This document shows, in pieces, positions 3,446-26,503 of a stretch of DNA of 64,000 nt (positions are counted from its first letter, which is position 1; every line of letters starts with the position of its first letter). The notes below the pieces were generated by a model that saw only the letters and a program-made list of their open reading frames with translations, was not told the DNA's origin and did no database searches. Made by a program: the position numbers and the translations under genes. Source of the DNA: Microcoleus sp. FACHB-672 (lineage in GTDB: Bacteria > Cyanobacteriota > Cyanobacteriia > Cyanobacteriales > Oscillatoriaceae); NCBI RefSeq assembly GCF_014695725.1, contig NZ_JACJOU010000023.1, forward strand, positions 1 through 64,000, read 5' to 3'.

Positions 3446-3513
3446 AAACAACAATAAACACTTAAAAGGCAAAAAGAACCATCTTTTATAGGCTAAAAAT
3501 TCTGCTAAATTAT

Positions 3514-4281: not shown

Positions 4282-4322
4282 GAACAAGCGCGTTGAAAAA
4301 ACCCTTTTTAATCTTATTCTTT

Positions 4323-5243: not shown

Positions 5244-5379
5244 GGGTTTGGCTAAATTTTATCGATATTTAATATCACATTAGATGCTACCGTGAACTAC
5301 TCCCAATAGCCGGTAGTCTCAAAAAAGTCCGTATTTGCCGGCAAAGAAAGCAAGCCTAATCAATTGCTCCCCTAGCTTA

Positions 5380-5445
5380 GGGCAATGCATTCGGATACTC
5401 TCATCCTTGGCAAGCCACTGATCGCGCTCGCCGAATGCTTTGCCC
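5380..5445. repeat. Dispersed palindromic repeat, copy 1
   Basis: Left arm GGGCAATGCATTCGG (5380-5394) is complementary, with one mismatch, to right arm CCGAATGCTTTGCCC (5431-5445). It sits in the 339-bp spacer 5244-5582, which otherwise holds nothing recognisable. A second copy with the same arms is at 61092-61159, so this is an interspersed, non-coding palindrome family. Confidence 0.75.
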
Positions 5446-5582
5446 TTACAGTATTTACATTTTGTGGTTTTTGTCAAACACTTCTACGAGACTAAGGATT
5501 TTGGAGTTTTTGAAATGGTTGCAATATCTATATCTCTCGTCAAATCAAGCATCTGTTAACCGGCCTTTCTCAAAGATATCTT

Positions 5583-6176
5583 CTAAAAACGTTTAATCTC
5601 TTTGACAGCCAAAAGCAGAGAGCTAACAGTCAAGCCAATGTAAACCAGCGATAGCCCACTCAAAAAAAATCCCTCAATTAGCTTTTCTCCGCTCAGGAAG
5701 GCCAGCGCAACTGCCCAAAGCCAAAAAGCAAAGCCGTAGCCCCCCACAGCGCCGGCAACTGCCACAGCAACCGCTCCCACGCCAGTGCGGAACCTCAAGC
5801 TGCCGGCTCCGATAAGTATCCCTCCAATGACTGCTGCTGCCACAGCAAACGCTGGGTTTTTACCCGCAGCGAGTCCACCATAAAAAAAACCAAGCAACGC
5901 TCCCGATGCGGTTGCTGACAAAGTATTTGCTACGGTTCTAAACCGTCGCGGCATAAAAGTTTTCAAACCAGAGCCGGCACCAGCAACGCTCAAGCTCACC
6001 AGCAACGCCACAATATAAGACCACTTCCGTCCTCCCACCGGCTCACCTAGAGAGGAAAATACAGTACGCGCTACCGCCGATCCCATTAAAACCGTTAGGA
6101 TCACTGCCACTACGACTAAAACCGCCACCCGTTTGAAAGTTATGCCGGTGGGCACTCGTTCAAAATTAGTTTTCAT
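5583..6176 (-). CDS. Multi-spanning membrane protein of unknown function
   Basis: 197 residues with about five or six hydrophobic segments: one near the N-terminus (VAVLVVVAVILTVLMGSA), then YIVALLVSLSVAG, a Gly/Ala-rich pair around residues 90-150, and two segments near the C-terminus, ending in a basic tail (KEIKRF). I recognise no family or catalytic motif. The ATG at 6176 is preferred over the adjacent GTG at 6179. It is divergent from the glycosidase-like gene at 6259, with an 82-bp shared upstream region. Confidence 0.7.
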   Translation of the reverse strand: MKTNFERVPTGITFKRVAVLVVVAVILTVLMGSAVARTVFSSLGEPVGGRKWSYIVALLVSLSVAGAGSGLKTFMPRRFRTVANTLSATASGALLGFFYGGLAAGKNPAFAVAAAVIGGILIGAGSLRFRTGVGAVAVAVAGAVGGYGFAFWLWAVALAFLSGEKLIEGFFLSGLSLVYIGLTVSSLLLAVKEIKRF

Positions 6177-6258
6177 CACTCAAACGCTTAGCCGGCGATA
6201 TTAACTTTTACTATTAAAACTGACAGACTAACCCTATAACTTTTCACCCTGCCGGCCT

Positions 6259-7185
6259 GTGAGCGTAAATCAACAGAAACCAATCTGGATCAAGCAATTG
6301 CCATTGGCAGCAGGTATCGGTTTGTTGCTGCTGCCACTGCTGCTGTATGCACGACAGCATTTGCTGCGCCCAGTTCGCACCAACCTTGAGATGACGCTGT
6401 TTCAGGGTATTACCTACAAGCGCCAAGCCCGGAATACGCCCCGCCCGTATATGCTGCACATCGTCAGCATTGATTTAACCGCGTCAGGGATTGGAGTGCT
6501 AGTGACACCGGGAAACAGCCAGGCAGGGGACAACACACTCGACGCCAGCAAGGAGATCCAAGCGCGAACCACGTCTGAGTTTGTTAGTGAGTTCAAGTTG
6601 CAACTAGCGATCAACGCCGGCTATTTTTTTCCGTTTCGTGAACATACCCCGTGGGATTTTTACCCTCGTAGCGGTGAGCGCGTCAATGTAGTCGGACAGG
6701 CAATTGCCAACGGATCTACCTACTCTGGTGTGCAATCTGGCAGGCCGGTGTTGTGTTTTAATAGCGGCAATCGTGCTCAAATTTTTGACAGTGGGCAGTG
6801 TCCAACGGAGACGGTTCATGCTGTCGCCGGCAGCCATATTGTGCTGAAAAGGGGCGTTTTATCGCTGAGTCCAGAGTCAAGCCGGCAAGATAAACCTTAC
6901 TCTCGTGTGGCGGTGGCGATAGACCGGCAGGGTCAAAAATTATGGCTGATTGTCATAGATGGCAAGCAACCACTTTACAGCGAAGGCGTTACTTTAGGGG
7001 AATTAAGTGAGATTGCACAGGAGTTGGGTGCTTTTGAGGCGCTCAATCTCGATGGCGGCGGTTCTGCCACTTTGGTTGTTGCCAATGATTCTGGCGTCAA
7101 GGTGTTGAATGCACCCATTCACACGAAGGTGCCGATGCGCCAGCGCCCTGTTGCCAATCATTTAGGTTTTTTTGCTGACTTCTAG
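6259..7185 (+). CDS. Phosphodiester glycosidase (NAGPA-like) family protein
   Basis: 308 residues starting at GTG. A membrane anchor or signal segment lies at about 12-30 (LPLAAGIGLLLLPLLLYA), so the catalytic part should be exported. The domain matches the NAGPA/DUF2233 family, related to the enzyme that uncovers mannose-6-phosphate in animals; bacterial members act on cell-wall or exopolysaccharide phosphodiesters. Characteristic features are LAINAGYFFPF, YSRVAVAID, the key ALNLDGGGSATLVV strand-loop and the C-terminal RPVANHLGFF. The substrate here is unknown. The 149-bp spacer to msrA holds a short CCCCAT simple repeat near 7210-7230. Confidence 0.85.
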   Translation: MSVNQQKPIWIKQLPLAAGIGLLLLPLLLYARQHLLRPVRTNLEMTLFQGITYKRQARNTPRPYMLHIVSIDLTASGIGVLVTPGNSQAGDNTLDASKEIQARTTSEFVSEFKLQLAINAGYFFPFREHTPWDFYPRSGERVNVVGQAIANGSTYSGVQSGRPVLCFNSGNRAQIFDSGQCPTETVHAVAGSHIVLKRGVLSLSPESSRQDKPYSRVAVAIDRQGQKLWLIVIDGKQPLYSEGVTLGELSEIAQELGAFEALNLDGGGSATLVVANDSGVKVLNAPIHTKVPMRQRPVANHLGFFADF

Positions 7186-7334
7186 GCGGAGTATTCACTG
7201 GGAGTTTTGAATGCCCCATGCCCCATGCCCCCTCAACATTTCGTGATTTCCCGAAACTGCTTGAAAATCCGCAGATTCTTTCCCTACCATAAAGTTATGT
7301 AACGACAATCGATGGAAAATCAGATTTAGAACTT

Positions 7335-7988
7335 ATGGGAATATTTGGATTGGGCAAGAAGCTAACACTGCCGTCTCCCCAAGATGCTTTACCGGGGCGG
7401 ACACAGGCGGTTAAAGTTCCCTCTAATCACTATGTCAATGGGAATCCGCTGCAGCCTCCTTTCCCTGCCGGCATGGAAATGGCCATGTTTGGCATGGGGT
7501 GTTTCTGGGGTGCAGAACGCAAATTCTGGCAGCTTGAGGGAGTGTTTAGCACAGCAGTCGGTTATGCCGGCGGGATAACGCCCCACCCCACCTATGAAGA
7601 GGTTTGCACCGGCATGACGGGGCACAATGAAGTCGTTCTCGTTGTTTTTGATCCGAAAGTGATCAGTTACGAAAGACTGTTGAAAGTTTTTTGGGAAAGC
7701 CACAACCCGACTCAGGGAATGCGCCAAGGTAATGACGTTGGCACCCAGTACCGTTCTGGAATTTATGCCTATTCAGATCGCCATAAAAAGCTCGCTGAAG
7801 CTTCGCTCAACGCTTACCAGAAAGCCCTTAGCGCTGCGGGTTACGGGACGATTACCACTGAAGTGATTGAGGCTCCTGAATTTTACTATGCAGAGAGCTA
7901 TCACCAGCAGTATTTAGCCAAAAATCCTAATGGCTATTGCGGCTTAGGTGGAACCAACGTGGGATGTCCGGCAATGATTGAAATTTAA
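7335..7988 (+). CDS. msrA: Peptide-methionine (S)-S-oxide reductase MsrA
   Basis: 217 residues. MsrA reduces methionine-S-sulfoxide in proteins, a repair step after oxidative damage. The nucleophile is Cys56 in the invariant GCFWGAE motif. [38 protein letters not shown] and [15 protein letters not shown] follow in family order. Cys202 and Cys211 near the C-terminus are candidate resolving cysteines. An N-terminal extension of about 50 residues before the core is usual for long MsrA forms. A strong intrinsic terminator follows at 8046. Confidence 0.97.
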
Positions 7989-8099: not shown

Positions 8100-8876
8100 T
8101 CACGCAGAAATAAAGTGAACCCAAAAGTCCCCATCTGGGATGCAAACCCGGCGAATTAGCCCGTAGGAGTAGTGGAGATACGCCCCATTAAGATCCGTGC
8201 GATATCCACTCGGAAACCACTCTCCATAGGGATCGTGAACATAGAAGCCGGTGCTGTCATACCCAACCGCTACGAGAATATGACCAAAAGACGTGAAGTA
8301 ACCGTGGATCACTGCCACATTGCCGGCGGCTAACCACTGCTTGACTCCATCAATGGTGGCGCGGGTTGTATAGTCATCGCGCCGACCATAATCTCTGACA
8401 ATTTTCGCCAAGTCTACCGGGTCCCACCGGCTGTAACCCTTACTCAGCGCATATTGATAAAGTTCATCCTCAAATTGGCCAGAAGTCTTTCGGCGGGGAG
8501 TCTTCAGGTACTCCAGACACATGGCAAGTGAGGTGACATTACAAGCGCCGGTGGGATTGTACCAGTTGTCTAGTTGAGACTTGTAAGGAACTGACAACCT
8601 GACCCTTGCCGGTAGGGGTTTTGGATAAACAACGGGGGTTTGAGGCGTATCCCCCAGTATCTGGACGTGTGGTGCGTAAGCGTACCAGGTATTGAAGCCT
8701 TTGAAGGAATCTTTAAGCAGTGCAAATCGAATGTGATCGCGAACAATGACGTAGGAGTGGAGTTCAAACTGCTTCCCCCCTGCCATCTGTTGTTTTTCGG
8801 CCTCTGTGAGTTCAGCCGATTGAATGGGTCTAAGTTTGAAAAAGGTTTCCCTGAGAGTTTTAATAGTCAGTGGCAT
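8100..8876 (-). CDS. C39-like cysteine peptidase family protein
   Basis: 258 residues. The N-terminal 80 residues contain an SH3-like stretch (QFELHSYVIVRDHIRFAL) followed by a Pro-rich linker. From about residue 92 the sequence matches the Peptidase_C39_2 fold: RLSVPYKSQLDNWYN, Cys112 in the TGACNVTSLAMC helix start, His199 in GHILVAVGY and Asp215 in VHDPYGEW, which form a plausible catalytic triad. No signal peptide is evident. The substrate is unknown; the combination is common in cell-wall or secreted-peptide processing enzymes (inference). Confidence 0.82.
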   Translation of the reverse strand: MPLTIKTLRETFFKLRPIQSAELTEAEKQQMAGGKQFELHSYVIVRDHIRFALLKDSFKGFNTWYAYAPHVQILGDTPQTPVVYPKPLPARVRLSVPYKSQLDNWYNPTGACNVTSLAMCLEYLKTPRRKTSGQFEDELYQYALSKGYSRWDPVDLAKIVRDYGRRDDYTTRATIDGVKQWLAAGNVAVIHGYFTSFGHILVAVGYDSTGFYVHDPYGEWFPSGYRTDLNGAYLHYSYGLIRRVCIPDGDFWVHFISA

Positions 8877-9409
8877 ACGCAGAGCTTAATTTACAAATGA
8901 TGCGCGAATTTTATTTTCCCACATCGGTTTATTTTCCCCCCTTTAGTTATTCTTCAGGATTTTACCTCTGTTGCCGGCTCCGGTTTTCCCGTGCTTTGGC
9001 CCAGTTCGGTGTTGAAGATATCATCGGATTTTACAAGGGAAATATTTAATACTTAGCCGGCTTCAGGATGTGCGAACAAGGCAATTGTTACGCAAATCAG
9101 TCTAAATTTCTACTTGACTAGCAACGGTATTTAAACCAATAACTTTTTCTTGTCTTATATAGGTTTGTTTCCCCGCTCATAAATTAATTATTGTTTAACT
9201 AGCGGTCAGGATCTGGCTAAAACTCTTAGGGTGCCGGTGGGGACGCCCATCTCTAGCAGCAAGTTGAATATTCCTCAGCTTACATCCATTAAGTAATTTG
9301 ATCGCACAGGATTCAGCATCAAGTTAACCCATAGGCCAACCTGTTACCCAGATTGCCTTGCTATCCTGAATACAGAGTTGCCCTGCTACCATCGCCGGCC
9401 CAAAAACCT
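8877..9409. other. Intergenic, no gene seen
   Basis: A 533-bp spacer between the divergent C39-like and NDH-2 genes. It is A/T-rich with several GCCGG words. I see no conserved ORF, tRNA or clear terminator. An in-frame extension from 9353 to 9409 before the NDH-2 ATG lacks family similarity and is treated as leader. Confidence 0.6.
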
Positions 9410-10603
9410 ATGAATGAACAACCCGCACGCATTTGCATTCTCGGTGGAGGCTTTGGAGGTCTCTACACAGCGCTGCGTTTGAGTGAGCTTCCCTGGAATA
9501 AACTCGAGAAACCCGAAATTGTTCTGGTCGATCGTAACGACCGCTTTTTATTCTCGCCCCTGCTGTACGAACTCCTTACCGGCGAGTTGCAAACCTGGGA
9601 AATTGCCCCACCTTTTGAAGAAATTTTGGCGAACACCGGCATTCGCTTTCATCAAGGAGCGGCAGCTGGAATTGATGTAGACTCCAAGCTGGTACAGCTT
9701 CAAGATGGCCATGATTTCTCCTATGACCGGCTCGTCTTGGCAATGGGGGGTGAAACGCCCCTTGACATGGTGCCGGGAGCTGAAAATTACGCCTTCCCGT
9801 TCCGGACAGTCACGGATGCCTATCGCTTGGAAGAACGCTTGCGAATTTTGGAAGCATCAGACAAAGAGAAAATTCGCATCGTTATTGTAGGTGCCGGTTA
9901 CAGTGGCGTTGAGTTGGCTTGCAAACTGGCAGACCGGCTTTCAACTCGCGGACGCCTGCGGCTGGTTGAACAAGGTGATATGATTCTGCGAACCTCGGCT
10001 GACTTTAATCGTGAGGCAGCCAGCAAGGCGCTAGAGGAACGGGGAGTGTGGCTTGATATGGAAACCGCAGTGGAATCCATCGGGCCAGAAACGATCTCCC
10101 TGGTGTATAAAGGACAGGTAGACACGATCCCAACAGATTTGGTGCTGTGGACGGTGGGAACCCAAGTTGCGCCGGTGGTGAAATCGCTTCCCCTCAAGCA
10201 AAATCACCGGGGTCAACTCGCTGCACTGCAGACCCTGCAAGCAGTTGACCACCCAGAAATTTTTGTTTTAGGAGATTTGGCCGATTGCAATGACGCAACA
10301 GGTCAGCAGGTGCCGGCAACCGCCCAGGCAGCCTTACAGCAAGCTGATTATGCCGGCTGGAATCTTTGGGCATCCCTCACAGGCCGGCCTTTGTTGCCGT
10401 TCCGCTATCAGGCAACCGGGGAAATGATGACGTTAGGCGTTGACAACGCGACCCTTAGCGGTTTAGGTATCAAACTTAATGGCCCCGCCGCCCATCTTGT
10501 CCGCCGTCTAACTTATCTCTACCGGCTGCCCACATTAGAACATCAGTTGAGAGTCGGTTTCAACTGGATTGCTCAACCGTTGCGGGAAATACTTTCTAAA
10601 TAG
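9410..10603 (+). CDS. ndbB: Type II NAD(P)H dehydrogenase, NdbB/NDC1-like
   Basis: 397 residues; single-subunit, FAD-dependent quinone reductase. The N-terminal FAD-binding fold is ICILGGGFGGLYTALRL; a second Rossmann motif, IVIVGAGYSGVELA, binds NAD(P)H; a third is the FAD ribityl region IFVLGDLADCND. DRNDRFLFSPLLYELLTGELQTWEIAPPF resembles the plant NDC1 and Synechocystis Slr1743 subgroup. That subgroup reduces demethylphylloquinone in vitamin K1 synthesis as well as plastoquinone, so the symbol rests on subgroup similarity. The ATG at 9410 is chosen because the longer frame from 9353 adds residues with no counterpart in the family. An alternative is another NDH-2 paralogue (NdbA/NdbC). Confidence 0.82.
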   Translation: MNEQPARICILGGGFGGLYTALRLSELPWNKLEKPEIVLVDRNDRFLFSPLLYELLTGELQTWEIAPPFEEILANTGIRFHQGAAAGIDVDSKLVQLQDGHDFSYDRLVLAMGGETPLDMVPGAENYAFPFRTVTDAYRLEERLRILEASDKEKIRIVIVGAGYSGVELACKLADRLSTRGRLRLVEQGDMILRTSADFNREAASKALEERGVWLDMETAVESIGPETISLVYKGQVDTIPTDLVLWTVGTQVAPVVKSLPLKQNHRGQLAALQTLQAVDHPEIFVLGDLADCNDATGQQVPATAQAALQQADYAGWNLWASLTGRPLLPFRYQATGEMMTLGVDNATLSGLGIKLNGPAAHLVRRLTYLYRLPTLEHQLRVGFNWIAQPLREILSK

Positions 10604-10658
10604 AGAGACTAGGGGTAGTTTCACTCCGCCCACAGAACCCATAAAATTGATCTCAACG

Positions 10659-10705
10659 TGCGTCATTAACAACAAGTTGTCATTCAACCTGTCGTCAATG
10701 ACGCA
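10659..10705. repeat. Short inverted repeat with GTCATT/GTCGTCAATGAC words
   Basis: TGCGTCATT (10659-10667) is the exact reverse complement of AATGACGCA (10697-10705). Between them are further GTCATT and GTCGTC words at regular spacing. It lies between ndbB and the HAD gene. The pattern resembles TnsB-site arrays at ends of cyanobacterial Tn7-like elements, but no transposition gene is nearby. It may equally be a transcript hairpin. Confidence 0.5.
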
Positions 10706-10741
10706 AAGACCGTTGAAATTATTTTGATAGGGCAACGATCA

Positions 10742-11395
10742 ATGACAAATAATCAGGGACGCCCCAAAGTTATTTTTTTAGATGCAGTTGGCACTTTATT
10801 TGGCGTGCGGGGAAGTGTAGGTGAAGTCTATGGAGAAATCGCCAGCCGGTTTAATGTTAAAGTTTCACCGGAGTTAATCAATCAATCGTTTTATAAAAGT
10901 TTTAAAGCATCAACACCGGCAGCGTTTCCAGGGGCTACGCCGGCACAGATTCCAGAAAGAGAATTTGAGTGGTGGAAAGCGATAGCCGGTCAAACTTTCA
11001 AAACAGCCGGTGTCTTCTATCAGTTTTCAGATTTTGATGCCTTCTTTACTGAAGCCTTCGCTTATTTTGCCACTGATCAAGCTTGGTTTATCTATCCTGA
11101 TGTCTTGCCGGCACTTGAATCTTGGCATCAGAAAAAAATTGAACTAGGAATTATATCAAACTTCGATTCACGCCTGCACGCAGTTTTAAAAGCACTAAAT
11201 TTGGCGGATTTTTTCACATCTGTTACAATTTCAACAGAAGTCGGTGCGGCAAAACCAAATTCTCAAATATTTATTGCCGGTTTGCAAAAACATAACTGCT
11301 CTGCTGAGACTGCTTGGCACATAGGCGACAGTTTTAAGGAAGATTATCAAGGCGCTAAAGCTGTCGGAATGCAAGGCATTTGGGTAAAGCGATAA
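10742..11395 (+). CDS. HAD-superfamily (subfamily IA) hydrolase
   Basis: 217 residues. HAD motif I is VIFLDAVGTLFG (the first Asp is the nucleophile, the second position is Ala, not the usual Asp). Motif II is LGIISNFDSR, motif III the Lys in GAAKPNSQIF, and motif IV is HIGDSFKEDYQGAKAVG. The helical cap lies between. The DAVGTL form occurs in the HDHD3-like group. Motif I lacks the second Asp, so phosphatase activity may be altered or another base may be used. The ATG at 10742 is preferred over a TTG six codons upstream. Substrate unknown. Confidence 0.85.
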   Translation: MTNNQGRPKVIFLDAVGTLFGVRGSVGEVYGEIASRFNVKVSPELINQSFYKSFKASTPAAFPGATPAQIPEREFEWWKAIAGQTFKTAGVFYQFSDFDAFFTEAFAYFATDQAWFIYPDVLPALESWHQKKIELGIISNFDSRLHAVLKALNLADFFTSVTISTEVGAAKPNSQIFIAGLQKHNCSAETAWHIGDSFKEDYQGAKAVGMQGIWVKR

Positions 11396-16434: not shown

Positions 16435-17916
16435 TCATTCATCTGCCGGCATTTCTCGCAAGAAGTAAAAGCAATCATTTTGCCAATCATTTGCTTCTTC
16501 GCGTCCTAAATAGCCGGTTAAGGGTGAAGAAAGCTCGATGAGAACTTCGTGCAATTGTTCTCGATTTAACAGAGGCTCAGGTGGAGTTGAGTATACATAT
16601 CCTCCGTGAAGTTGATTAAACACAACTTTTTGAGCTTGGCTTTTTTCCAAGTAATCTTTTACAAATTTAACGAGGTACACTCGAAGTTTAATTTGTTGGG
16701 AAACCTGCTGAATGTATTTTTCAACTTCACTATCAGATTTGCCTGGTTTGAGATATTCTTTTAGCTTAAACAAATCCACTGAACCGGGATATTTACTTTG
16801 AAGTTTTACTAACTTTTCTAGTGTTTCCGGGTTAATAATTGCCATATTATGCACCTTTGCGGCGTCTTCGAGTTGTGGAGTCGGCTCACCAGGGCCGATA
16901 ATTAATTTTGCTGTTTGCTCAAGTAGTTTTTTGTCGTTTAGGCGTAGCGTTCCCAAATTCAGCAGTTGCACCGCTGTATCATTAGGAATCTTTTTGCCGG
17001 CTTTACACTCGCCAACTAAGGCATAGGGTTTTGAGCAGAATAAATCTAAGCCGCCGGCACCACCTTTATGAGCGTGATCAATCGTGAATCCTATAAATTC
17101 TAGGCTATCACGCACAGCAATTTCAAAGTCTGTGCCGGCTTGATAGTTACTCTTGCCCACATCTTCTTCTTTACTGCGATTACCTAATTGGGCAATGGTA
17201 TCTATCCAAGCTAAATTCGGATCTGGTTGCGCTTTTGGCGAAGCTTCAGACCAACCCAAAAAGATTTTGATTTCTTGATCAAGTGCTTTGGCTGCTGGAT
17301 TACTCAGAGACATCTGCTCTACTTGAGCCTGTAAAGCCTCTAAACCGCTATCGGGAACGTCTTCTCCTGCTAATAAAAGCGCTTTCCGTTTATTAAAACT
17401 AACCTCTGAAACGATAGGGGTATCGCTCTCACTGCCCATCGTTATAATATCTTCTGACTGATTAGGCCAGTAGAAATGTCCGGGTTCTGTTGGAATATTA
17501 ACAGTGCAAGGATTCGATAAGCGATAAACGCGCAAAATCAAAAGTTTTAGAACCTTGTACTGCTCAAAGATATGTTCTAAAGCAGTTAAATTCCAAACAG
17601 TTGACTTGGCAATGTTAGGTAAAAGATGCTTTTGGTCTGGATTAATCCGCCATTGAAATTCACAACGCGCCCAGGTTTTAAGCTGGATGGGATGCTTTTC
17701 ATATTGGGCAAATGAACTTCTCGCCTGAGTTAAATATTCAGGTTGGTAGTATTCTTCGAGACTGAGATTATCGGGAAGCTTTTGACTGGGATAAAGCCAG
17801 AATTCCTGATTGTCTGGAATATACTGTCTGAATGGCACAGCAATCAGCTTGCCTAAACTCAGCATTTCCACATCAAAAGCCGGCAGTTGAATCCCCTTAA
17901 TAATCTGAACTGTCAT
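16435..17916 (-). CDS. DUF1802-PD-(D/E)XK nuclease fusion protein
   Basis: 493 residues, last gene of a three-gene minus-strand operon. Residues 1-155 resemble DUF1802: AVPFRQYIPDNQEFWLYPS, KTWARCEFQW, LTALEHIFEQYKVLKLLILR and VYRLSNP. A linker (155-255) follows. Residues about 262-345 form a restriction-endonuclease-like core: Glu265 in FEIAVRDSLEFIGF, Asp291 in GGAGGLDLF, and Glu303-x-Lys305 in ALVGECKAGKK, the expected PD-(D/E)XK metal and catalytic residues. The C-terminal 150 residues are charged and helical with no motif I recognise. The start ATG overlaps the stop of the upstream ATPase gene by four bases (ATGA), implying translational coupling. Likely a nuclease component working with the ATPase. 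No published system is recognised. Confidence 0.72.
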   Translation of the reverse strand: MTVQIIKGIQLPAFDVEMLSLGKLIAVPFRQYIPDNQEFWLYPSQKLPDNLSLEEYYQPEYLTQARSSFAQYEKHPIQLKTWARCEFQWRINPDQKHLLPNIAKSTVWNLTALEHIFEQYKVLKLLILRVYRLSNPCTVNIPTEPGHFYWPNQSEDIITMGSESDTPIVSEVSFNKRKALLLAGEDVPDSGLEALQAQVEQMSLSNPAAKALDQEIKIFLGWSEASPKAQPDPNLAWIDTIAQLGNRSKEEDVGKSNYQAGTDFEIAVRDSLEFIGFTIDHAHKGGAGGLDLFCSKPYALVGECKAGKKIPNDTAVQLLNLGTLRLNDKKLLEQTAKLIIGPGEPTPQLEDAAKVHNMAIINPETLEKLVKLQSKYPGSVDLFKLKEYLKPGKSDSEVEKYIQQVSQQIKLRVYLVKFVKDYLEKSQAQKVVFNQLHGGYVYSTPPEPLLNREQLHEVLIELSSPLTGYLGREEANDWQNDCFYFLREMPADE

Positions 17917-19742
17917 GTTACAGTGCCGCCCTCGCTCAGAATTTCACGGATAAGTTTATTATCCGCAGCGAGTTTGAGTTCTTTGACGAAATTTGAAACG
18001 TCCTCTTTTGTAAAACCGTAGTTTTCAGCTTCTTCATACATTGTATAAATCCCTGCTAAAGGATTAATTTCATCTTTCTTCAAAACAACAACCTCACCCC
18101 CTTGTTGATTCACAAGTTGCTGTTCAAGTTCTTTAGCTTTTCTCCAACTTTTTGGGAGGGGTGTAGAACGCACTAAACAACCGCGAGTAATCCCATATTT
18201 GCCGTAGTCTAGCAGTTTCTTCATCGCCGCAGTGAAGGTTGCAGCCGTCTGAGTTTCACAAATTCTGACACCTATCTTTACATTTTTTTGTTGGGTGGAA
18301 TCAGAGCCAGAGATTGTCAAATGAAGGTCATGAGACTTCGCTTTAATAGACTCGACTTTTTGAATGACTAAATTTTCGATAGCTTCTTCTGGCAACATTT
18401 TCATTGCACAGGCAACGATTGCAGCTAACTGATCATCATTTTGCTCAGGGGCAGAAGTTCGACCTAACAATTCGTTATAAGCATCCAAAAATTCTTGACG
18501 TTTCTTTTCTTCTGGGTTTAAGGATGGGGTGACTGACCCTCCGATTTCCACTGAATCGAATTTTTCAGTACACCATTTCATTAGAGAGCGAACTCCAGCT
18601 CCCTTACTGGCAATTCCTTTGATTTCATTTTCATCGAAAGGATATAAAAAAGGGTAGCCATCCGGATTTAAATTCTTTTCAGAATAAAACCAATCCAACC
18701 TCAATTTCACAAGTTCTATCATCTGCTCAGCCGTGGGTGGTTTTGTAGATTCAGACCATTGGCCGACCCGATCTGGGATACCACTTCCCATTTGTTCGAT
18801 TTCCCGCCACCTATCGCTCATAACGCAGCAAAGGATAATCACATTGCTACATTGAAAGTAAATTTTATCAATACAGCTTGCTACAATTTGAGCGGCGCTA
18901 TCTCCACAATCAGCACTGACATTAGGCTGGTCTAATTGATCAAAACAAATCACTACAGGTCGTGAGGCAACGCTAGCTAGCTTACAAATTTGCTGGATAA
19001 ACCAAATAGATTTCGCATCTTGCTCTGGTTGCGACAACTCTGGTAAGCCTCTTTGTCTGGTCTCTGGATGCTCGATACCTTGAATCCAAGCCATGCCAAC
19101 CTGAGCAATGGGGGCAGTTTTGAAGAGTAAAAACAAAACTGCTTTCAAAAAATCAGGATGAAGATCGGATTGATTCTCTAGAATAGCTTCAACCAGTTCA
19201 TCAACCAGTTCATACCTTTGGGCTGTACTATGAGTTCTGAGGATGTATTTTCTTAGTTCTTCAGGATTCTCACATTTTTCAAGATAAGGCTGGTATTTTT
19301 CTTCAAATTCCGTTCCTTTGAGAGTGGCAACCATAGCCGTTGCTAACTGCTGCCATTGTGTAATTCCCCCGACATCTTTGTGATTAAAACTGAGTGATAG
19401 ATAGAAGCGCACATGGGAGTCAATGCGATTGGCATCAACAAATTGAGGAATGTAGGCAAATACTGCGCCCCCTTCCCTCTCAATAGTTTTCCAGATCCGA
19501 TGAATTACGTGACTTTTACCAGTGCCTCGATCGCCCTTGATAGCAATTCCAATTTTGTCCGAATACCTTTTGCGAACTTCGGAAATGGCTTGATATATTG
19601 TTCGATCAACGTGCTGATTGAGGTTAGGCAAATCAGTGACTACGTCCCCCCAAACTTCATCCGCGCTGACGATTGGTTTTAATTTGAAAGGATTTGGGCC
19701 TTGTTTCCGCGCTTCTTCAAATAGTGTGTATGGATCTGTCAT
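17913..19742 (-). CDS. AAA+/ORC-like P-loop ATPase (operon partner of the nuclease)
   Basis: 609 residues. Walker A is GDRGTGKSH (70-78). Walker B is VVICFDQLD (263-271). A sensor-2-like GAGVRSLMKW (381-390) suggests an AAA+ fold of the ORC/STAND type. A separate C-terminal module (about 470-605) with VKIGVRICE, LLDYGKYGITRGCLVR and NPLAGIYTMYEE is shared with the paralogue at 21617-23536. No membrane segment. The ATG at 19742 has an AAGGAAGA site. It begins 17 bp after the winged-helix gene and ends overlapping the nuclease gene. I infer that it couples ATP hydrolysis to DNA recognition or loading of the nuclease. It is much shorter than BrxC/PglY-type proteins. Confidence 0.78.
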   Translation of the reverse strand: MTDPYTLFEEARKQGPNPFKLKPIVSADEVWGDVVTDLPNLNQHVDRTIYQAISEVRKRYSDKIGIAIKGDRGTGKSHVIHRIWKTIEREGGAVFAYIPQFVDANRIDSHVRFYLSLSFNHKDVGGITQWQQLATAMVATLKGTEFEEKYQPYLEKCENPEELRKYILRTHSTAQRYELVDELVEAILENQSDLHPDFLKAVLFLLFKTAPIAQVGMAWIQGIEHPETRQRGLPELSQPEQDAKSIWFIQQICKLASVASRPVVICFDQLDQPNVSADCGDSAAQIVASCIDKIYFQCSNVIILCCVMSDRWREIEQMGSGIPDRVGQWSESTKPPTAEQMIELVKLRLDWFYSEKNLNPDGYPFLYPFDENEIKGIASKGAGVRSLMKWCTEKFDSVEIGGSVTPSLNPEEKKRQEFLDAYNELLGRTSAPEQNDDQLAAIVACAMKMLPEEAIENLVIQKVESIKAKSHDLHLTISGSDSTQQKNVKIGVRICETQTAATFTAAMKKLLDYGKYGITRGCLVRSTPLPKSWRKAKELEQQLVNQQGGEVVVLKKDEINPLAGIYTMYEEAENYGFTKEDVSNFVKELKLAADNKLIREILSEGGTVT

Positions 19743-19759
19743 GATTTTCTTCCTTTATC

Positions 19760-20449
19760 TCAAGATTGTTGACTGGCGAAAAATAACAGTCCTCTCACGT
19801 CGTCGGTGATAGAGTCGCGTTTTTGCTCGTCTGTTGCGCCACGCGCTTCGCCGCTTTGGAGATAGAACAATTGTTCACCCTGCATTTTCATCAGCCACTC
19901 ATTAAAATCTTCACGTCCCACTCGCTCGCCTAGTTCACGGCGCAGATGCCAGAGGGGAACAAGTCCACTGTAGTTGTGGCCTTTATCCAGCTTTTCAAAT
20001 AAGGCGAGAACTTCAGGCTTAAATTTCTCATAAGATGTGATTTCAGCCGTCGGCTTGCCTTGAGATGCCGGCACACTTACCGCACCATCCATTTGACGAA
20101 TCCACTTCAGCAACGCATTAGCAACCCTGCTACCAACTTGAGTGCCGTCAAACTCAAATTCAGCACTTTTTAATCCTTCAGCTAGGCTTTGTCGGCCTTC
20201 ATTGGTTAAAGAAATCTGCGTGACTCGATTTTTATTGGCAATCTCAATTGCTTTAGATTCTTCTAATTCCGTCAAGATATTTTTATAGTCTTGACTTGTC
20301 TCACCTGTGCGTACGATGCGTTTTGTCAAATCCCCTTTCTTAACCCCAGTTTCCGATCCTCCCAAATCCCACAAAGTTAGGAGCAGGCGAGTTCTTGCTT
20401 GGGATTGAAAATCCTTTGAATCCTTATTCTTGCCGGCTTTAGATGACAT
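19760..20449 (-). CDS. Winged-helix DNA-binding protein, first gene of the nuclease operon
   Basis: 229 residues. After a Lys-rich N-terminus, RTRLLLTLWDLGG, LTKRIVRTG, YKNILTELEESKAIEI and the wing-like RVTQISLTNEGRQSL form a MarR/BlaI-like winged helix at about 15-90. The second half (PLWHLRRELGERVGREDFNEWLMKMQGEQLFYL) resembles a further winged-helix or helical dimerisation region. The ATG at 20449 is chosen over TTG 20455. It is the promoter-proximal gene, so it could be the operon's regulator, or a structural DNA-binding subunit (inference). Confidence 0.65.
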   Translation of the reverse strand: MSSKAGKNKDSKDFQSQARTRLLLTLWDLGGSETGVKKGDLTKRIVRTGETSQDYKNILTELEESKAIEIANKNRVTQISLTNEGRQSLAEGLKSAEFEFDGTQVGSRVANALLKWIRQMDGAVSVPASQGKPTAEITSYEKFKPEVLALFEKLDKGHNYSGLVPLWHLRRELGERVGREDFNEWLMKMQGEQLFYLQSGEARGATDEQKRDSITDDVRGLLFFASQQS

Positions 20450-20638
20450 ATTCAAAATTCCTGATAACGTGGATACCGTCTCACACTCTCCAAGTTATAG
20501 TACCCAAAAATTCTTAACTCTCCCTATCAAGTCCCTGGAAAAGCGAAATCAAATTTTTACATAAATTGAAAAATGTTAATTTGTTCTTTCAAACCTTGAC
20601 AACTTTTGCAATTAACAATATGAGAACTTAAATAAACT

Positions 20639-20661
20639 GAAAAAGCCCGCTTCGGCGGGCT
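20639..20661 (-). terminator. Rho-independent terminator after the phzF-like gene
   Basis: On the minus strand the stem AGCCCGC / GCGGGCT with a four-base loop is followed by TTTTT. It lies about 48 bp past the end of the PhzF-family gene and separates it from the winged-helix/ATPase/nuclease operon, which therefore needs its own promoter in 20450-20638. Confidence 0.88.
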
Positions 20662-20708: not shown

Positions 20709-21497
20709 TTAAGTCAACTCTCCACGCAAAACTGTTACTGCTTGACCGCCTAAATAGACGCGTTCGCCGGCTAAACGTACCCGCACAACGCCACCCCGCG
20801 CTGATGCCTGATAAGCTACAAACTCATTTTTATGTAATCGCTGGCTCCAAAAAGGTGCGAGGCAGCAATGTGCAGAACCCGTCACCGGATCTTCATTAAT
20901 TCCGGCTGCCGGTGCAAAAAAGCGTGAGACAAAATCATACTCATGGGATGCGGATATACAGGTAGCAATGATGCCGCGCACCGGCAGAGTTTTTAATAAT
21001 ACAAAATCTGGCTGCATTTGCCGCAGCTCTTCTTCAGAATCAACCTCAACCAAATAATCAAATTTATTCTTCCCAACATACTTCAGCTTAACGCCTAACG
21101 CTTGCTCTAAAAGCGGCGGCGCAGATGCCGATTCAGGCGCGTTTTTGGGAAAATTCAATTCAATCCAATTTCCCTGGCGTTCCGCTGTCAGCAAACCGCT
21201 GCGAGTGTAAAATTTTGCCTGTGCTGCTGCATCTAAATACTGCAATTCCCACAACACATGAGCACTCGCCAGTGTTGCGTGTCCGCATAAATCGACTTCG
21301 ACTGCCGGCGTAAACCAGCGCAAATTATAACCCTCTTCTTGGGGATATAAAAATGCGGTTTCTGACAAATTCATTTCTGCGGCAACATTCTGCATCCACT
21401 TTTCATCTGCCGGCTCATTTAAAACACAAACCGCTGCTGGATTACCGGAAAACCGTTTATTAGTAAATGCATCCACCTGAATCAGTGTTTTTTCCAT
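20709..21497 (-). CDS. PhzF-family isomerase/epimerase-like protein
   Basis: 262 residues. PhzF-fold proteins share the diaminopimelate-epimerase fold; the founding member isomerises a phenazine precursor, but most members have no known substrate. Visible: QVDAFTNKRFSGNPAAVCVL, the catalytic-type Glu in NLSETAFLYP, RWFTPAVEVDLCGHATLASAHVLWE and DPVTGSAHCCLAPFW. A GAGGAAACG site precedes the ATG. It stands between the two paralogous ATPase genes, all on one strand; there is no evidence that it functions with them. Confidence 0.9.
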   Translation of the reverse strand: MEKTLIQVDAFTNKRFSGNPAAVCVLNEPADEKWMQNVAAEMNLSETAFLYPQEEGYNLRWFTPAVEVDLCGHATLASAHVLWELQYLDAAAQAKFYTRSGLLTAERQGNWIELNFPKNAPESASAPPLLEQALGVKLKYVGKNKFDYLVEVDSEEELRQMQPDFVLLKTLPVRGIIATCISASHEYDFVSRFFAPAAGINEDPVTGSAHCCLAPFWSQRLHKNEFVAYQASARGGVVRVRLAGERVYLGGQAVTVLRGELT

Positions 21498-21616: not shown

Positions 21617-23536
21617 TCAGGACTTTGTAAAATCTCTCATCAAATTCCGCTGATCTGCCGGCTCCACTTGCTCTACAAACACTGCCTCATTCGTTTCCGC
21701 TTCAGGAACAACTTCAACGGTAGCTTGAGGAGTTTCTCCTCTGACAATTCCTCGAATTAAAGGATTATCTATTGCCAACCTTCTTTGAGCAATAAATTCA
21801 AAAATTTCCGTCTCACTAAATTGATCGGCTTGACGATGCCGGTGAAGTGACCAAATTGCGATCAACGGCTTAATATCTTCTAATTTCAAATTTACCCATT
21901 TTCCCCCCAGTTCAACTGTAAGCTGGGTGAGATAATCATAAGCTTGCCAGTGAGTAGCAATTTCTCGCTCTGAAGCGCGAACGAAACAACCGCAACTTAG
22001 TGCGAAAGTTCCATATTGTGTTAAACGTTTTAATCCTGCTGCCACACTTTGAGCGCGAGTATCCTGAAGCACAGCCACGCCTATCTTGACAGTATTTTCA
22101 TTTTGCGTGCCGGTGATTATAAATTGAATATATTCTTGATTGGCTGATTTGGGTTTCACCTCACCGTCAACCGCTTCTATTTTTACGCCTTCCACAGTCT
22201 GACCGATTAATGTTTTAAAGCTAAAGTTAATCGCTTCAGCCAGCAAAGAATTATTACTCAATTCCTCGCCGAGTTCAATACTCATTGCTTGCTCAAAAGC
22301 TTGTTCCACTTTTTCCAAAGGATCAAGCTCAACAGGGCGAAAATTTTCTGCACACCACTCTAAAACCTGCCGTACTGTCAGTTGTTCTCGACCTAGAGAT
22401 TGTAATTGACCGCTATCAAAGGGATAAACCGGCGTAGGCGGGATTAAGTTTTTAGATGTATAAAAGATTTCCAGCCAGTCACTGACTAACTCGACAATTT
22501 TATCTCCAGTAATATTATTTAATTCAATAACTTCTTTTTTGCCTGAAAAATAAGTGACAAGTCCAGCCGGCAGAGTCAAAATTTTCTCAGTCCAGGTTGC
22601 CGGTGTCATTGTCGAAAGAATCACAACCCCATGATTGAGGCGACTCATCTGAAGGCTATCCCATAAACGCCTGATTAAGCTTGCCACCACCCGTTCCCGC
22701 TTCAAACTGTTATCGCTGCTTTCTGTCGAATCCAAGTCATCAAAACAAATAATCAGCGGATAATAATCACTCATTAAATGCAGAATTTGTACCACCGTAT
22801 CCCAAGCGGTGGATTCTCGTTCCTCGCGGCTGTGATTCGGTAATCCCAACTCATCTGCCTTCCAAGATGCCAGGGATTTGCCGGCTAACCATTTCACCGC
22901 AAAAGGCGCTTGTGCGTTGCAAAGTGTCCACACTAATGCTCGAACAATATCCGGTTCAGGTACATCAGGTTGCGTTTTGAAAACAGCTTCTGTTAACTGG
23001 TTTACCCAGTTTTGATTTTTTGCCTGGGAGTTCCCCGCTAGTTTTCTCACCAATTCGGCAGCAGTAAACGCTTTCGCCATAGGAGTCAGCGCTTTTAAAG
23101 CTTCGTTAATCATCACGGTTGCAAGTTGCTGACACTGTAAAACACCTTGACTTCCTTGGCGTCTCAAGCTATCAACGAGAAGTTGCAGGAATTGGTAGCG
23201 AATTAGATTAACTTCAGTGAATTGATGAGCGTTGGCATAAATAAATAAGCCACTGCTTTGAACTTGTAGCCGATGGCGAATGCGATGAATTAGGTGACTT
23301 TTCCCTGTACCACTGTCACCAGAAATCGTGATTGATATAACTTTAGTTTGCCCAGTTCGCACTTGCTCAATCGCTTGAAAAACATCATCAGAAGCGTGAT
23401 TGTTAACTGTAGTAATATCCGGAAATATTAGACTCCAAATCTCTGAATCTTTTACAGCCGCCGGGCTATTAAATGGGTTGTGAGTAGCGATGGCAGTATT
23501 AAGCGCTTTAATCGGAGAGATAAAATCACAAGCCAT
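21617..23536 (-). CDS. AAA+/ORC-like P-loop ATPase, paralogue of the operon ATPase
   Basis: 639 residues. Walker A is GDSGTGKSHLIHRI (73-86) and Walker B is LIICFDDLDS (261-270). A sensor-2-like LTVRQVLEWCAENF follows. The C-terminal module has VKIGVAVLQD, GTFALSCGCFVR and IKPLIAIWSLHR. It aligns end to end with the ATPase at 17913-19742: NPF near the N-terminus, GD-GTGKSH-IHRI, QQLAT, CFDQLD/CFDDLD and DN-LIR at the C-terminus. A C-terminal acidic tail rich in Glu/Val is unique to this copy. ATG 23536 is used; TTG 23560 is possible, and neither has a strong ribosome site. Unlike its paralogue it has no adjacent nuclease gene. Confidence 0.75.
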   Translation of the reverse strand: MACDFISPIKALNTAIATHNPFNSPAAVKDSEIWSLIFPDITTVNNHASDDVFQAIEQVRTGQTKVISITISGDSGTGKSHLIHRIRHRLQVQSSGLFIYANAHQFTEVNLIRYQFLQLLVDSLRRQGSQGVLQCQQLATVMINEALKALTPMAKAFTAAELVRKLAGNSQAKNQNWVNQLTEAVFKTQPDVPEPDIVRALVWTLCNAQAPFAVKWLAGKSLASWKADELGLPNHSREERESTAWDTVVQILHLMSDYYPLIICFDDLDSTESSDNSLKRERVVASLIRRLWDSLQMSRLNHGVVILSTMTPATWTEKILTLPAGLVTYFSGKKEVIELNNITGDKIVELVSDWLEIFYTSKNLIPPTPVYPFDSGQLQSLGREQLTVRQVLEWCAENFRPVELDPLEKVEQAFEQAMSIELGEELSNNSLLAEAINFSFKTLIGQTVEGVKIEAVDGEVKPKSANQEYIQFIITGTQNENTVKIGVAVLQDTRAQSVAAGLKRLTQYGTFALSCGCFVRASEREIATHWQAYDYLTQLTVELGGKWVNLKLEDIKPLIAIWSLHRHRQADQFSETEIFEFIAQRRLAIDNPLIRGIVRGETPQATVEVVPEAETNEAVFVEQVEPADQRNLMRDFTKS

Positions 23537-24129
23537 AGTATATTGCTTTAAGAGGGTCAATAAAGTTACTAGCTGAAGCGGCGGCGCTATCTAACTGTTT
23601 TACCGCCGGTTCTATCAAAAATTGTCGCTTGCCCCAACTCGAAATAGATTTGCACCCTTGCCGATCAGTTGCTGATGACATCGCACAGCAGGATAGCTAT
23701 ATAGTTGCCGCCTGTTCCTCATCTTTCATGGATTTGCATGATCATCAAGCCCAAAAAGCATGGAAGTAGCGACACAGGGAATCACCTAAAATTTAGCACA
23801 TTAAATTTATATCTACCCACTTCTCTAGTCTATTGCAAAGTAAATATACAAACTATACCCACCTTACTCTCTGGAGTTTGAAAGGGCTAAAGCTTGAAGG
23901 GCGAAGGAGGAAAGAGGCTGGCAAGGCAGGCAGAAATTTTGCAAATTAATTCAAGTCATCTCAAGAAAAGTTTTGGATTTTTTGGCATAAAGTCTCCTTG
24001 AGAAGACGGGATGAAATATCAATTGGTTGCCAGCTAGCGTGTTATTGCCTTAACCCTACTATGAGAAAAGTTAGTGTTTTTTAATAATAAATAGGGTAAA
24101 GCCGGCAGTGCCGGCCCTACTTTGCTTGC
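23537..24129. other. Intergenic, no gene seen
   Basis: About 590 bp upstream of the second ATPase gene and downstream of mdh on the minus strand. It contains a GCCGGCAGTGCCGGCC palindromic cluster near 24100-24116, possibly part of an mdh terminator region. No ORF with a ribosome site or family similarity was found. Confidence 0.55.
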
Positions 24130-25113
24130 CTAAGACTCGGAGGCGCTAGCAATCAGTTCTTTTGCCCGATCAATGTTTTGCCGAACAGATTCAGCGGAAG
24201 CCTTGAACGCAGTTTGTTCGTTTTCAGTTAAGGGCAGTTCCAACACTTTTTCTACCCCACGGCAACCCAGCCGGCAAGGCACACCCAAGAAAAGATCCCG
24301 CAACCCATACTCGCCTTCCAGATAGGCTGCTGCCGTTACCAAGCGCGACTGATTTAATAAAATCGCTTCCACCATCAAGGCAACCGAAGAAGCCGGTGCA
24401 AAATAAGCGCTGCCGGTTTGCATCAGTTCCACAATTTCTGTCCCGCCATTGCGAGTTCGCTCAACGAGGCGTTCAATCGTTGCAGCATCCATCAAATCTG
24501 TGATGGGAATTCCCCCAACCGTACAGTAGCGAGGCACCGGCACCATCAGCTTGCCATGATCCCCCAACACTAAAGCGTTGATATCCTGCACCGAAAGGCC
24601 CAATTCCATCGCAATAAAGGTCTGAAAACGGGCGGAATCGAGTACCCCTGCCATGCCTATTACCCGGCGTCCCGGCAACCCACTCGCCTGCCAAGCTAAG
24701 AAAGTCATGACATCTAGCGGGTTGGTGACGACGATAAAAATGGCATCGGGAGAGTTGGCAACCGCGTTTTTTGTTGCTTCAACAACGATTTTTGCGTTGG
24801 TTTTGATTAAGTCGTCCCGACTCATCCCCGGTTTGCGCGGCAAGCCGGCGGTGATCACGACAATGTCACAACCGGCTGTGTCTTTATAATCGTTAGTGCC
24901 GGTAATTTGCCGGTCGTGGCGTTCCACCCCTCGCGCTTCCATAAGATCGAGGGCGATACCTTGGGGCATTCCGGCCAAGATATCCAGCAATACCACATCA
25001 GCAATGTTTTTTTCAGCAATTCGCTGTGCCAAGGTGCTGCCAACTCTGCCGGCACCAATAACCGCGACACGAGGGCCACTACAAGTAGGTGGAGAGAACG
25101 AGGTAGAGGTCAT
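24130..25113 (-). CDS. mdh: Malate dehydrogenase
   Basis: 327 residues, LDH/MDH family. The NAD-binding motif is VAVIGAGRVGSTLAQRIA. The substrate-specificity loop PRKPGMSRDDL carries the Arg and Met pattern of malate dehydrogenases rather than lactate dehydrogenases. VTNPLDVMTFLAWQASG and the catalytic His in LGDHGKLMVPV follow; a Lys replaces the Asp usually found after the HG in many homologues. The product interconverts malate and oxaloacetate in the open TCA pathway. ndhO lies 52 bp upstream on the same strand, so a transcript could join them. Confidence 0.95.
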   Translation of the reverse strand: MTSTSFSPPTCSGPRVAVIGAGRVGSTLAQRIAEKNIADVVLLDILAGMPQGIALDLMEARGVERHDRQITGTNDYKDTAGCDIVVITAGLPRKPGMSRDDLIKTNAKIVVEATKNAVANSPDAIFIVVTNPLDVMTFLAWQASGLPGRRVIGMAGVLDSARFQTFIAMELGLSVQDINALVLGDHGKLMVPVPRYCTVGGIPITDLMDAATIERLVERTRNGGTEIVELMQTGSAYFAPASSVALMVEAILLNQSRLVTAAAYLEGEYGLRDLFLGVPCRLGCRGVEKVLELPLTENEQTAFKASAESVRQNIDRAKELIASASES

Positions 25114-25564: not shown

Positions 25565-26503
25565 TCACTCCTGACACTGAGGGCAAAAGTGGGAGGATCG
25601 ACCGGCTAACTTAAGTCGCTCAAGGGGGGTGCTACAGACACGACAAGGTTGACCGGCACGATTGTAAACCCAGGCTACACCGGCATAGTTTCCGTTGATG
25701 CCTTGGACGTTAAGAAAGTTACTGAAGGTTGTGCCACCGGCTGCGATCGATGCTTGCAAAACCTGAATGACAGCATCATGTAAGCGTTCTATCTGTTGCC
25801 GGCTCAAATTTGCACATAGAGTTTCTGGGCGGATGCCGGCTTTAAATAAGGCTTCATCGGCATAAATATTACCCACACCGGCAACAATGGACTGATCAAG
25901 CAAAGCGGTTTTGATGGGGCGTTGGCGTCGCGCTAGCTTGCTGACAAAATATTCCAAGTCAAACTCAGCAGAAAAGGGTTCGGCACCCAGTAGCTTAAGG
26001 CCGGTGATAATTTCTTGGGGATTGGATAGGGGGGGCACCCACCACATTTGGCCAAAGGTACGCTGATCCACAAAGCGCAATTCTCGGTTGCCGGCGAAAA
26101 ATAGGCGGACGCGGGTGTGTTTTTGTAAAGGGGTGTCTTGATCAAGCCACAATAACTGGCCGGTCATCCGCAGGTGAACACCTAGCCAGCCCGTTCCTTG
26201 AGCGCTGAGTCCTGAGTGCTGAGTGCTGAGTTTTAGTGAGGAAGACGGGGACTGCTCAATGCCCCTTGCCCCTTGCCCCTTGCCCCTTGTCCCCTGCAAA
26301 TCATCTAGTTCAGCAAGCAAGTATTTACCCCGCCGGTGCCACTGGGCGAGGGTTTTCCCTTTCAGGCCGGTTAAAAAATCCTCAACAAAAAGAGGATGGG
26401 CGATGGTGCGAGCAAGCAACACATCCCCACCCAATATTTCTTGGCCCAGGGTCAATTGATTTAGACCCTGGCGCACTGTTTCTACTTCAGGCAGTTCAGG
26501 CAC
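25565..26503 (-). CDS. mutM: Formamidopyrimidine-DNA glycosylase MutM (Fpg) with internal insertion
   Basis: 312 residues, longer than the usual 270-290. Fpg removes 8-oxoguanine and formamidopyrimidines and cleaves the abasic site. The start is GTG at 26503, giving MPELPEVET, whose Pro2 is the nucleophile and Glu3 a catalytic acid. HRRGKYLLAEL and GVHLRMTGQLLW flank a low-complexity insertion of about 35 residues. The helix-two-turn-helix region (GVGNIYADEALFKAGI) and the C-terminal zinc finger CRVC...CPQC are intact, so the protein is probably active. The gene starts 3 bp after the psaE stop codon, so it should be co-transcribed with psaE, an unusual pairing of repair and photosystem I. Confidence 0.96.
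   Translation of the reverse strand: MPELPEVETVRQGLNQLTLGQEILGGDVLLARTIAHPLFVEDFLTGLKGKTLAQWHRRGKYLLAELDDLQGTRGKGQGARGIEQSPSSSLKLSTQHSGLSAQGTGWLGVHLRMTGQLLWLDQDTPLQKHTRVRLFFAGNRELRFVDQRTFGQMWWVPPLSNPQEIITGLKLLGAEPFSAEFDLEYFVSKLARRQRPIKTALLDQSIVAGVGNIYADEALFKAGIRPETLCANLSRQQIERLHDAVIQVLQASIAAGGTTFSNFLNVQGINGNYAGVAWVYNRAGQPCRVCSTPLERLKLAGRSSHFCPQCQE
26204..26297. repeat. Simple repeats inside mutM
   Basis: Tandem GAGTGCT units (near 26204-26231) and several copies of CCCCTTG (26261-26297) lie in the mutM coding sequence. Similar CCCCAT and GAGTCCT-type tracts occur in spacers of this window (for example near 7210), so this looks like intergenic-type repeat DNA that entered a gene without breaking the frame. 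Confidence 0.85.

Follow-up and report, generated by a model that had tools for sequence, protein, structure and literature searches.

The operon and its three proteins

The 64,000-nt stretch of Microcoleus sp. FACHB-672 that was analysed (the window; coordinates of the operon and its surroundings are given in its numbering) carries on its minus strand a compact operon for a winged helix-turn-helix (wHTH) protein, an ATPase and a nuclease, which most likely constitutes a defence system that is not named in the libraries we searched and that has strong evolutionary support. The genes follow each other in the order wHTH (19760..20449; 229 aa from the ATG at 20449, the start used in a preliminary description made from the sequence, or 231 aa from a TTG at 20455 that is also open), ATPase 1, which is of type I (17913..19742; 609 aa), and a DUF1802 domain joined to a PD-(D/E)XK nuclease (16435..17916; 493 aa). 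The three open reading frames (ORFs) on one strand, with a 17-bp gap and then a 4-bp overlap, had been noted in the preliminary description and were reproduced in our ORF check, and the Walker A (GDRGTGKSH) and Walker B (VVICFDQLD) motifs, Asp291 and Glu303-x-Lys305 are all present as it had claimed. The ratio of non-synonymous to synonymous substitution rates (dN/dS) against Microcoleus vaginatus WJT46-NPBG5 was 0.13, 0.13 and 0.11 for the three genes, which are under purifying selection; the same comparison gave 0.15 for atp2, a second ATPase gene nearby, and 0.07 for the neighbours mdh, phzF and invertase.

The wHTH protein (family alignment of 43 rows) was recognized by weak winged-helix models only, with all Pfam matches below threshold. 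Within its 231-aa frame two domains can be discerned: an N-terminal domain (residues 20-95; 20171..20398, minus strand), which constitutes the 5' operon end and is inherited vertically, and a C-terminal domain (residues 131-231; 19763..20065, minus strand), which co-varies with the ATPase and recurs in tandem in cyanophage proteins.

The Walker A and B motifs of ATPase 1 lie at residues 70-78 and 263-271, and G73, G75, K76, F267 and D268 are unchanged across the 46 rows of the ATPase alignment, which identifies the protein as an AAA+/P-loop ATPase. The sensor-2-like arginine of the preliminary description finds a counterpart in a late arginine, R385, conserved in at least 90% of these rows, for which the sensor 2 role is putative. 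The nearest Pfam family is AAA_16, below its cut-off. With the structure model (predicted local distance difference test, pLDDT, 74) all Foldseek E-values were 5e-3 or worse; RdrA came first (probability 0.94) and BrxC seventeenth (0.54), Cdc6 (1fnn) had a probability of 0.95 but an E-value of 0.027, and ORC, NSF, other AAA+ proteins and unrelated proteins were listed too. On this weak fold match the AAA+ part may be called ORC/Cdc6-like. The C-terminal domain (residues 430-605; 17928..18455, minus strand) shows, in the secondary structure of the model, a fold like that of restriction endonucleases (REases), and Foldseek matches to EcoT38I, MspJI and AspBHI (E 0.02 or worse) were taken to concern this part. 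Since the alignment contains no invariant acidic or Lys residue there, we read it as a putative, catalytically silent REase-like domain.

In the nuclease, DUF1802 (PF08819) was matched over residues 11-178 (Pfam E=1.6e-16, 61.1 bits against a cut-off of 25); the domain (17383..17886, minus strand) co-varies with the ATPase and is a candidate docking domain. The nuclease core (residues 241-412; 16681..17196, minus strand) behaves as an exchangeable cassette, and the C-terminal tail (residues 456-490; 16447..16551, minus strand) is the 3' operon end that is kept in scar loci. All 44 rows of the nuclease alignment share E265, the D291-containing GG.GG.D loop, E303 and K305 without exception; this alignment leaves out genome G153, where the frame ends at a contig edge (locus L055, the same region as L036, was left out of the alignments). 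The structure model is usable from residue ~241 to ~410, with a pLDDT of 74-92 in 10-residue blocks except for two blocks at 49 and 57, and residues 260-375 follow the helix/strand order of the PD-(D/E)XK fold (alpha-beta-beta-beta-alpha-beta). Foldseek placed HindIII first (probability 1.00, E=2e-3), followed by N.BspD6I and VC1899, with EndoMS at rank 7 and unrelated folds such as MenB from rank 6 on. Membership of the PD-(D/E)XK superfamily, as proposed in the preliminary description, is thus supported by the model's secondary structure, by restriction enzymes among the Foldseek matches, weak as their scores are, and by the invariant residues. A stand-alone DUF1802 protein of 198 aa is encoded elsewhere in the same genome (G000:C33:113484-114032; L142 5467-6063) and fits the Pfam model far better (E=2.5e-72) than the DUF1802 domain of the nuclease does.

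Co-occurrence, lineages and exchange of parts

To assess the distribution of the operon, 292 sampled genomes of the phylum Cyanobacteriota were examined (G### denotes a sampled genome, with G000 the window's own, and L### a fetched locus). The nuclease (E below 1e-130) was found in 43 genomes, a strong wHTH C-terminal domain (E <= 2e-30) in 45 and the ATPase (E <= 3.4e-16) in 44. All 43 nuclease genomes possess the wHTH protein and 42 the ATPase, the exception being G153, in which wHTH and nuclease lie at the ends of two contigs. Apart from the window and G153, 40 of 41 examined loci had the order wHTH-ATPase-nuclease on one strand, and the 41st, that of G155, is broken by a contig end. With the window included, the operon is contiguous in 41 of the 43 nuclease genomes, so that the joint conservation on which the preliminary description had made its proposal depend was indeed found. 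Given this contiguity and the low dN/dS, the operon is not a chance arrangement. Outside the phylum sample a pattern scan yielded three loci, all cyanobacterial. The genes mdh, mutM or pgi were present inside the fetched stretch in 15 of the 41 sample loci, in 10 of them on both sides.

The ATPase tree separates a type I clade of eight rows (support 100/100; the window, M. vaginatus, Cylindrospermum and five others) from a broader type II. Among the 340 pairs of a type I and a type II nuclease, the DUF1802 domains are at most 36% identical, yet the cores are at least 70% identical in 52 pairs and at least 90% in four. For nine of the ten type I nucleases (the window and M. vaginatus being taken as two) a core of at least 75% identity exists in a type II nuclease; for the window this partner is L070 (core 83-85%, DUF1802 26%). 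The most telling pair consists of L037 (type I) and L062 (type II), with an amino acid identity of 30% in DUF1802 and 97-99% in the core. Their DNA is ~97% identical from codon ~237 to ~414, with sharp breakpoints, and outside the core mostly 33-56% before it, 26-56% just after it and 70-86% in the tail. Moreover, two versions of the core occur in both ATPase types (7 and 3 in type I, 19 and 15 in type II). Sequence comparison therefore identifies the nuclease core as a cassette exchanged between the two ATPase lineages.

A further level of exchange was apparent when pairwise identities of the separate domains were compared with those of gyrA in 29 genomes (G118 and G103 were left out, having no full-length ATPase frame). 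The wHTH N-terminal domain correlated strongly with gyrA (r=0.88), followed by the middle of the wHTH protein (0.70) and the nuclease tail (0.56), and correlations were weak for the wHTH C-terminal domain (0.26), the AAA+ region (0.17), the ATPase C-terminal part (0.18), DUF1802 (0.35), the linker (0.43), the nuclease core (0.33) and the stretch preceding the tail (0.18). The bootstrap difference between the N- and C-terminal wHTH domains was 0.62 (0.39-0.79), and within family f6 alone (20 genomes, window not included) the N-terminal domain correlated with gyrA at 0.74. With the AAA+ region as reference the wHTH C-terminal domain reached 0.87 and DUF1802 0.76, and the nuclease core 0.10. These correlations imply that the wHTH C-terminal domain, the ATPase and DUF1802 travel as one unit and the core as another, and that the N-terminal domain remains with its species. 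The 3' operon end is less clear as a resident end than the 5' end appears to be. The preliminary description had the wHTH protein either sense DNA or control the operon; the data suggest separate roles for its two domains, regulator-like for the N-terminal one, which remains at the locus, and adaptor-like for the C-terminal one, which co-varies with the ATPase. Loading or activation of the nuclease by the ATPase, as proposed in the preliminary description, is a putative function; the co-variation of ATPase and DUF1802, the only pointer to a contact between ATPase and nuclease, hints that the two may touch.

Remnants of the wHTH N-terminal domain and/or the nuclease tail occur apart from the module in G284, G251, G245, G022, G024, G127 and G153, the N-terminal domain being a stand-alone ORF of ~100 aa in G284, G245, G022 and G127; longer stand-alone nuclease tails are found in G087, G133 and G135. 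In G245, G022 and G127 both end remnants flank genes resembling the Bunzi system (the nuclease is represented in G127 by a 21-aa frame, E=0.0035); in G153 such genes follow a wHTH remnant with a broken frame, and a tail was not found. The BnzB match at these loci is strong (E ~1e-62); we call them Bunzi-like because the BnzA match is only weak (E=0.0034 in L144). G022 and G153 have module genes plus a separate Bunzi-like locus elsewhere. G245, G022 and G127 have near-identical bnzB genes (dS, the synonymous divergence, 0.04-0.09), and the adjoining wHTH remnants differ far more (dS 0.40-0.92), indicating that the cargo there is younger than its frame. Other contents include an 836-aa PDC-S28 helicase (E=2.3e-276) between the nuclease tail and mdh in G251 and, behind an intact wHTH gene in G129, a 1097-aa SNF2-type helicase with partial DpdE and DrmD matches (best E 1.6e-15) and a PLD-like match below cut-off. 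Only mdh fragments were seen between the remnants of G284, and next to the nuclease tail of G024 no defence gene was recognisable. In L068 and L080 repeated 3' tails of the nuclease follow its gene downstream; in L068 (2735-5596) the tail occurs twice among genes that by eye resemble toxin-antitoxin genes.

Phage-borne copies and neighbouring genes

The wHTH C-terminal domain occurs in tandem in ORF078 of Planktothrix phage PaV-LD and in proteins of six metagenomic phage contigs from IMG/VR. Viral contigs were also searched with the nuclease and ATPase profiles, which gave no match. The highest identity between phage and host domains was 65% (copy 2 of L092 with L075), and copy 2 of PaV-LD is 60% identical to L074, with 41% as next best. 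Three of the four phage proteins inspected have an ADP-ribosyltransferase (ART)-like gene beside them: PaV-LD ORF079 and the neighbour in L093 matched an ART family above cut-off (E 2.4e-5 and 6.5e-6), and the L090 neighbour matched a family related to ART below cut-off (E 5.4e-4); the fetched stretch of L092 stops short of any neighbour gene. By eye, both neighbouring proteins of L090 share their N-terminal ~170 residues, and ORF078 and ORF079, which sit between annotated head and tail genes of PaV-LD, have a similar N-terminal stretch in common. It looks as if one putative delivery region is combined with different payloads.

In hosts the domain is found in the wHTH proteins of the operon and, where inspected, weakly in those of sister modules. 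The 45 strong matches comprise the 43 nuclease genomes, G129 (wHTH with helicase) and G133 (wHTH with ATPase), and of 22 weaker ones (E 1e-10 to 5e-4) the three inspected (G121, G054 and G229) were sister-type wHTH genes. The possibility that the phages merely carry a common cyanobacterial domain was rejected, as the matches in the window genome are those of the module and of a sister module only. We read the tandem copies as putative counter-defence, with a role as trigger equally possible on sequence grounds.

Upstream of the operon, between it and atp2, lies phzF (20709-21497, minus strand; Pfam), after which a terminator-like hairpin (20644..20661, minus strand) is consistent with the operon being a transcription unit separate from phzF. 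Such hairpins occur in the region at chance level (5 observed, 4.1 expected), and a promoter scan was uninformative (4 observed, 8.1 expected). Further upstream follow atp2 (21617-23560, minus strand; 647 aa), located between mdh and the operon and overlooked in the preliminary description, and mdh (24130-25113) and mutM (25565-26503), both on the minus strand and with identities read from the sequence. Atp2 is a paralog of ATPase 1 (33% identity) that groups with L076-L079 (100/100), a clade of solo ATPases lacking wHTH and nuclease genes within the fetched 16-18 kb. It is of the solo type, and only a candidate partner of the operon.

When 85 of 160 flanking genes were compared with PADLOC, matches fell in 58 families, each of the 25 listed ones in a single gene; as a random control is absent and the number of genes matched was not given, no conclusion on defence-island enrichment can be drawn. 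Repeated pairs of small genes (~110 and ~120 aa), convergent with the nuclease, adjoin the hotspot in L033 (4502-6736), L044 (4441-5481) and L134 (5968-7430); the second gene has a weak match to retropepsin-type aspartyl proteases, below the Pfam cut-off (E=0.0017, L145 copy). At 773-3445 of the window long Pro-Thr-Glu repeats precede, by eye, a CHAT-type protease-like C-terminus, with the opposite strand also open.

Interpretation and relation to known systems

We consider the operon a candidate anti-phage or anti-mobile-DNA module of the ATPase-plus-nuclease kind, residing in a cassette-exchange hotspot, with a probability of about two in three. The defence role suggested in the preliminary description is strongly, if indirectly, indicated by the exchange of the nuclease core between two ATPase lineages, by the N-terminal wHTH domain following species history when the interior does so weakly and other defence genes lie beside remnants of the operon, and by the tandem domain copies in phages. 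In such a module the N-terminal wHTH domain would act from its own promoter to repress or tune the operon and would remain at the locus, and the C-terminal domain would dock on the ORC/Cdc6-like ATPase. The latter may assemble on invading DNA, its silent REase-like domain helping to grip the DNA, and DUF1802 would tether the nuclease, whose PD-(D/E)XK core would cut. Exchange of the core could alter the cutting preference or evade phage inhibitors, and the phage copies, possibly delivered with the virion, might act as decoy or inhibitor.

Several observations weigh against this reading. The ATPase frame is interrupted in four of the 41 contiguous loci (G118, G103, G039 and G282), the position of the locus is conserved, unlike that of a freely mobile island, and the operon contains neither a modification enzyme nor a self/non-self rule. 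A plasmid collection gave no nuclease, ATPase or wHTH match, and a phage collection no nuclease or ATPase match. The two structure models were built from 4 and 6 sequences, the DUF1802 part of the nuclease model has a pLDDT of ~30, and for either model no Foldseek E-value was below 1e-3, with unrelated folds in both lists. The correlations of the interior with gyrA are mostly significant (Mantel p 0.0005-0.034), which means that some vertical signal remains, and within f6 the nuclease tail (0.26) tracks gyrA no better than the wHTH C-terminal domain does (0.26). Finally, the four Bunzi-like replacements probably represent one lineage.

Three other explanations were weighed. A defence aimed at plasmids or transformation DNA instead of phages, in a Wadjet-like role, would suit the compact combination of winged helix, ATPase and nuclease, which presumably follows the logic of plasmid-targeting machines, and some cyanobacteria take up DNA naturally; yet the phage-borne domain copies point to phages and none of the four window proteins searched (those of the operon and atp2) is an SMC-family or Toprim component, and we regard such a target as rather unlikely. 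Purifying selection, the recurrent mdh/mutM/pgi neighbourhood and the pairing of an AAA+ ATPase with an REase-type nuclease would fit a housekeeping machine for DNA repair or recombination in filamentous cyanobacteria, comparable to HerA-NurA end processing. Against such a machine, which we consider unlikely, speak a presence in only 43 of 292 genomes, a nuclease core swapped as a cassette, an interior that tracks species history weakly, the defence genes located next to what is left of the operon ends, and the domain copies in phages. That the ends are boundaries of a domesticated or mobile element with which the operon moves itself appears very unlikely: the repeated 3' tails in L068 and L080, the toxin-antitoxin-like genes (by eye) between the L068 tails and the scars at several sites would agree with it, but the operon contains no transposase or integrase match, its 5' end follows species history, and the breakpoints fall within genes, as in homologous recombination.

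Within the defence reading we tentatively propose, as a possibility that falls short of being probable, that the operon ends (the N-terminal wHTH domain and the last ~35 nuclease codons) could serve as coding anchors for swapping whole defence systems (the module in its two lineages, Bunzi-like, PDC-S28), with exchange of the nuclease catalytic domain alone as a second level. The N-terminal winged helix would then regulate any cargo, and the phages would respond by delivering, alongside ADP-ribosyltransferases, proteins that mimic the adaptor domain in tandem. Of most interest in the analysis are the exchange of cassettes at two levels and the adaptor-domain copies in phages. If the defence reading is correct, filamentous cyanobacteria possess a further anti-phage system and offer a clear case of immunity evolving through exchange of a catalytic nuclease domain within a co-varying machine. 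PaV-LD ORF078, as a candidate counter-defence protein of an isolated phage, makes the idea directly testable.

The four window proteins were compared with Pfam, PADLOC, NCBIfam (June 2026) and PHROGs. In line with the preliminary description, no named system matching the operon was found in PADLOC, NCBIfam or PHROGs. BREX, DISARM, Dnd, Wadjet, Gabija, Zorya, Septu and Qat were rejected on the weakness of the PADLOC matches, the best of which were DpdH (E=1.1e-4, on atp2) and Avs2 (2.4e-4, on ATPase 1). In NCBIfam nothing exceeded a curated cut-off, the nearest being ATPase_Sll1717 on atp2 (27.5 bits against 75); a sequence search of solved structures gave nothing convincing, and no description of the system was found in open-licence papers.

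Bunzi (BnzA-BnzB) occupies the same end remnants in G245, G022, G127 and G153, but its proteins are unrelated to those of the operon. RdrA of RADAR and BrxC of BREX both appear in the Foldseek list of the ATPase model (E 5e-3 or worse), but the operon has no RdrB, PglZ or methyltransferase partner. The logic of ATPase plus nuclease is shared with HerA-NurA; however, the operon ATPase is nearest to AAA_16 (below cut-off) and not to HerA, and the DUF1802-REase nuclease matched no NurA family.

SspFGH of the SspABCD-SspFGH phosphorothioate defence is described as a module of three genes, among them a Walker-A ATPase, by which foreign DNA is damaged (PMC8092258). The window operon resembles it in having three genes and a Walker-A ATPase, but its third gene lacks an FtsK translocase. 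Membership was rejected, as the window proteins had no Ssp match even with E-values up to 1; by eye no sspBCD was recognised in the ORF list of the window, and a genome-wide search was not made. Sister modules share a part with this system. In L081, L083 and L085 a more distant wHTH-ATPase pair is followed by a fusion of a 3'-5' exonuclease, a PD-(D/E)XK nuclease and FtsK (4659-7451, 2827-5355 and 8421-10970, respectively). The sister ATPases and wHTH proteins gave no SspF or SspG match. In L083 (2827-13915) the fusion closes a cluster with two wHTH genes and three ATPases that are related, and at G000:C7 (L088 4286-9529) the window's own genome has a sister wHTH gene for a 299-aa protein and, behind it, two related ATPases of 710 and 682 aa, with no nuclease seen beside them. 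In L081 and L083 the C-terminal part of the fusion matches SspH (PADLOC E=3.2e-65 and 1.5e-66), and the exonuclease-nuclease-FtsK fusion is possibly an undescribed defence effector of the SspH type.

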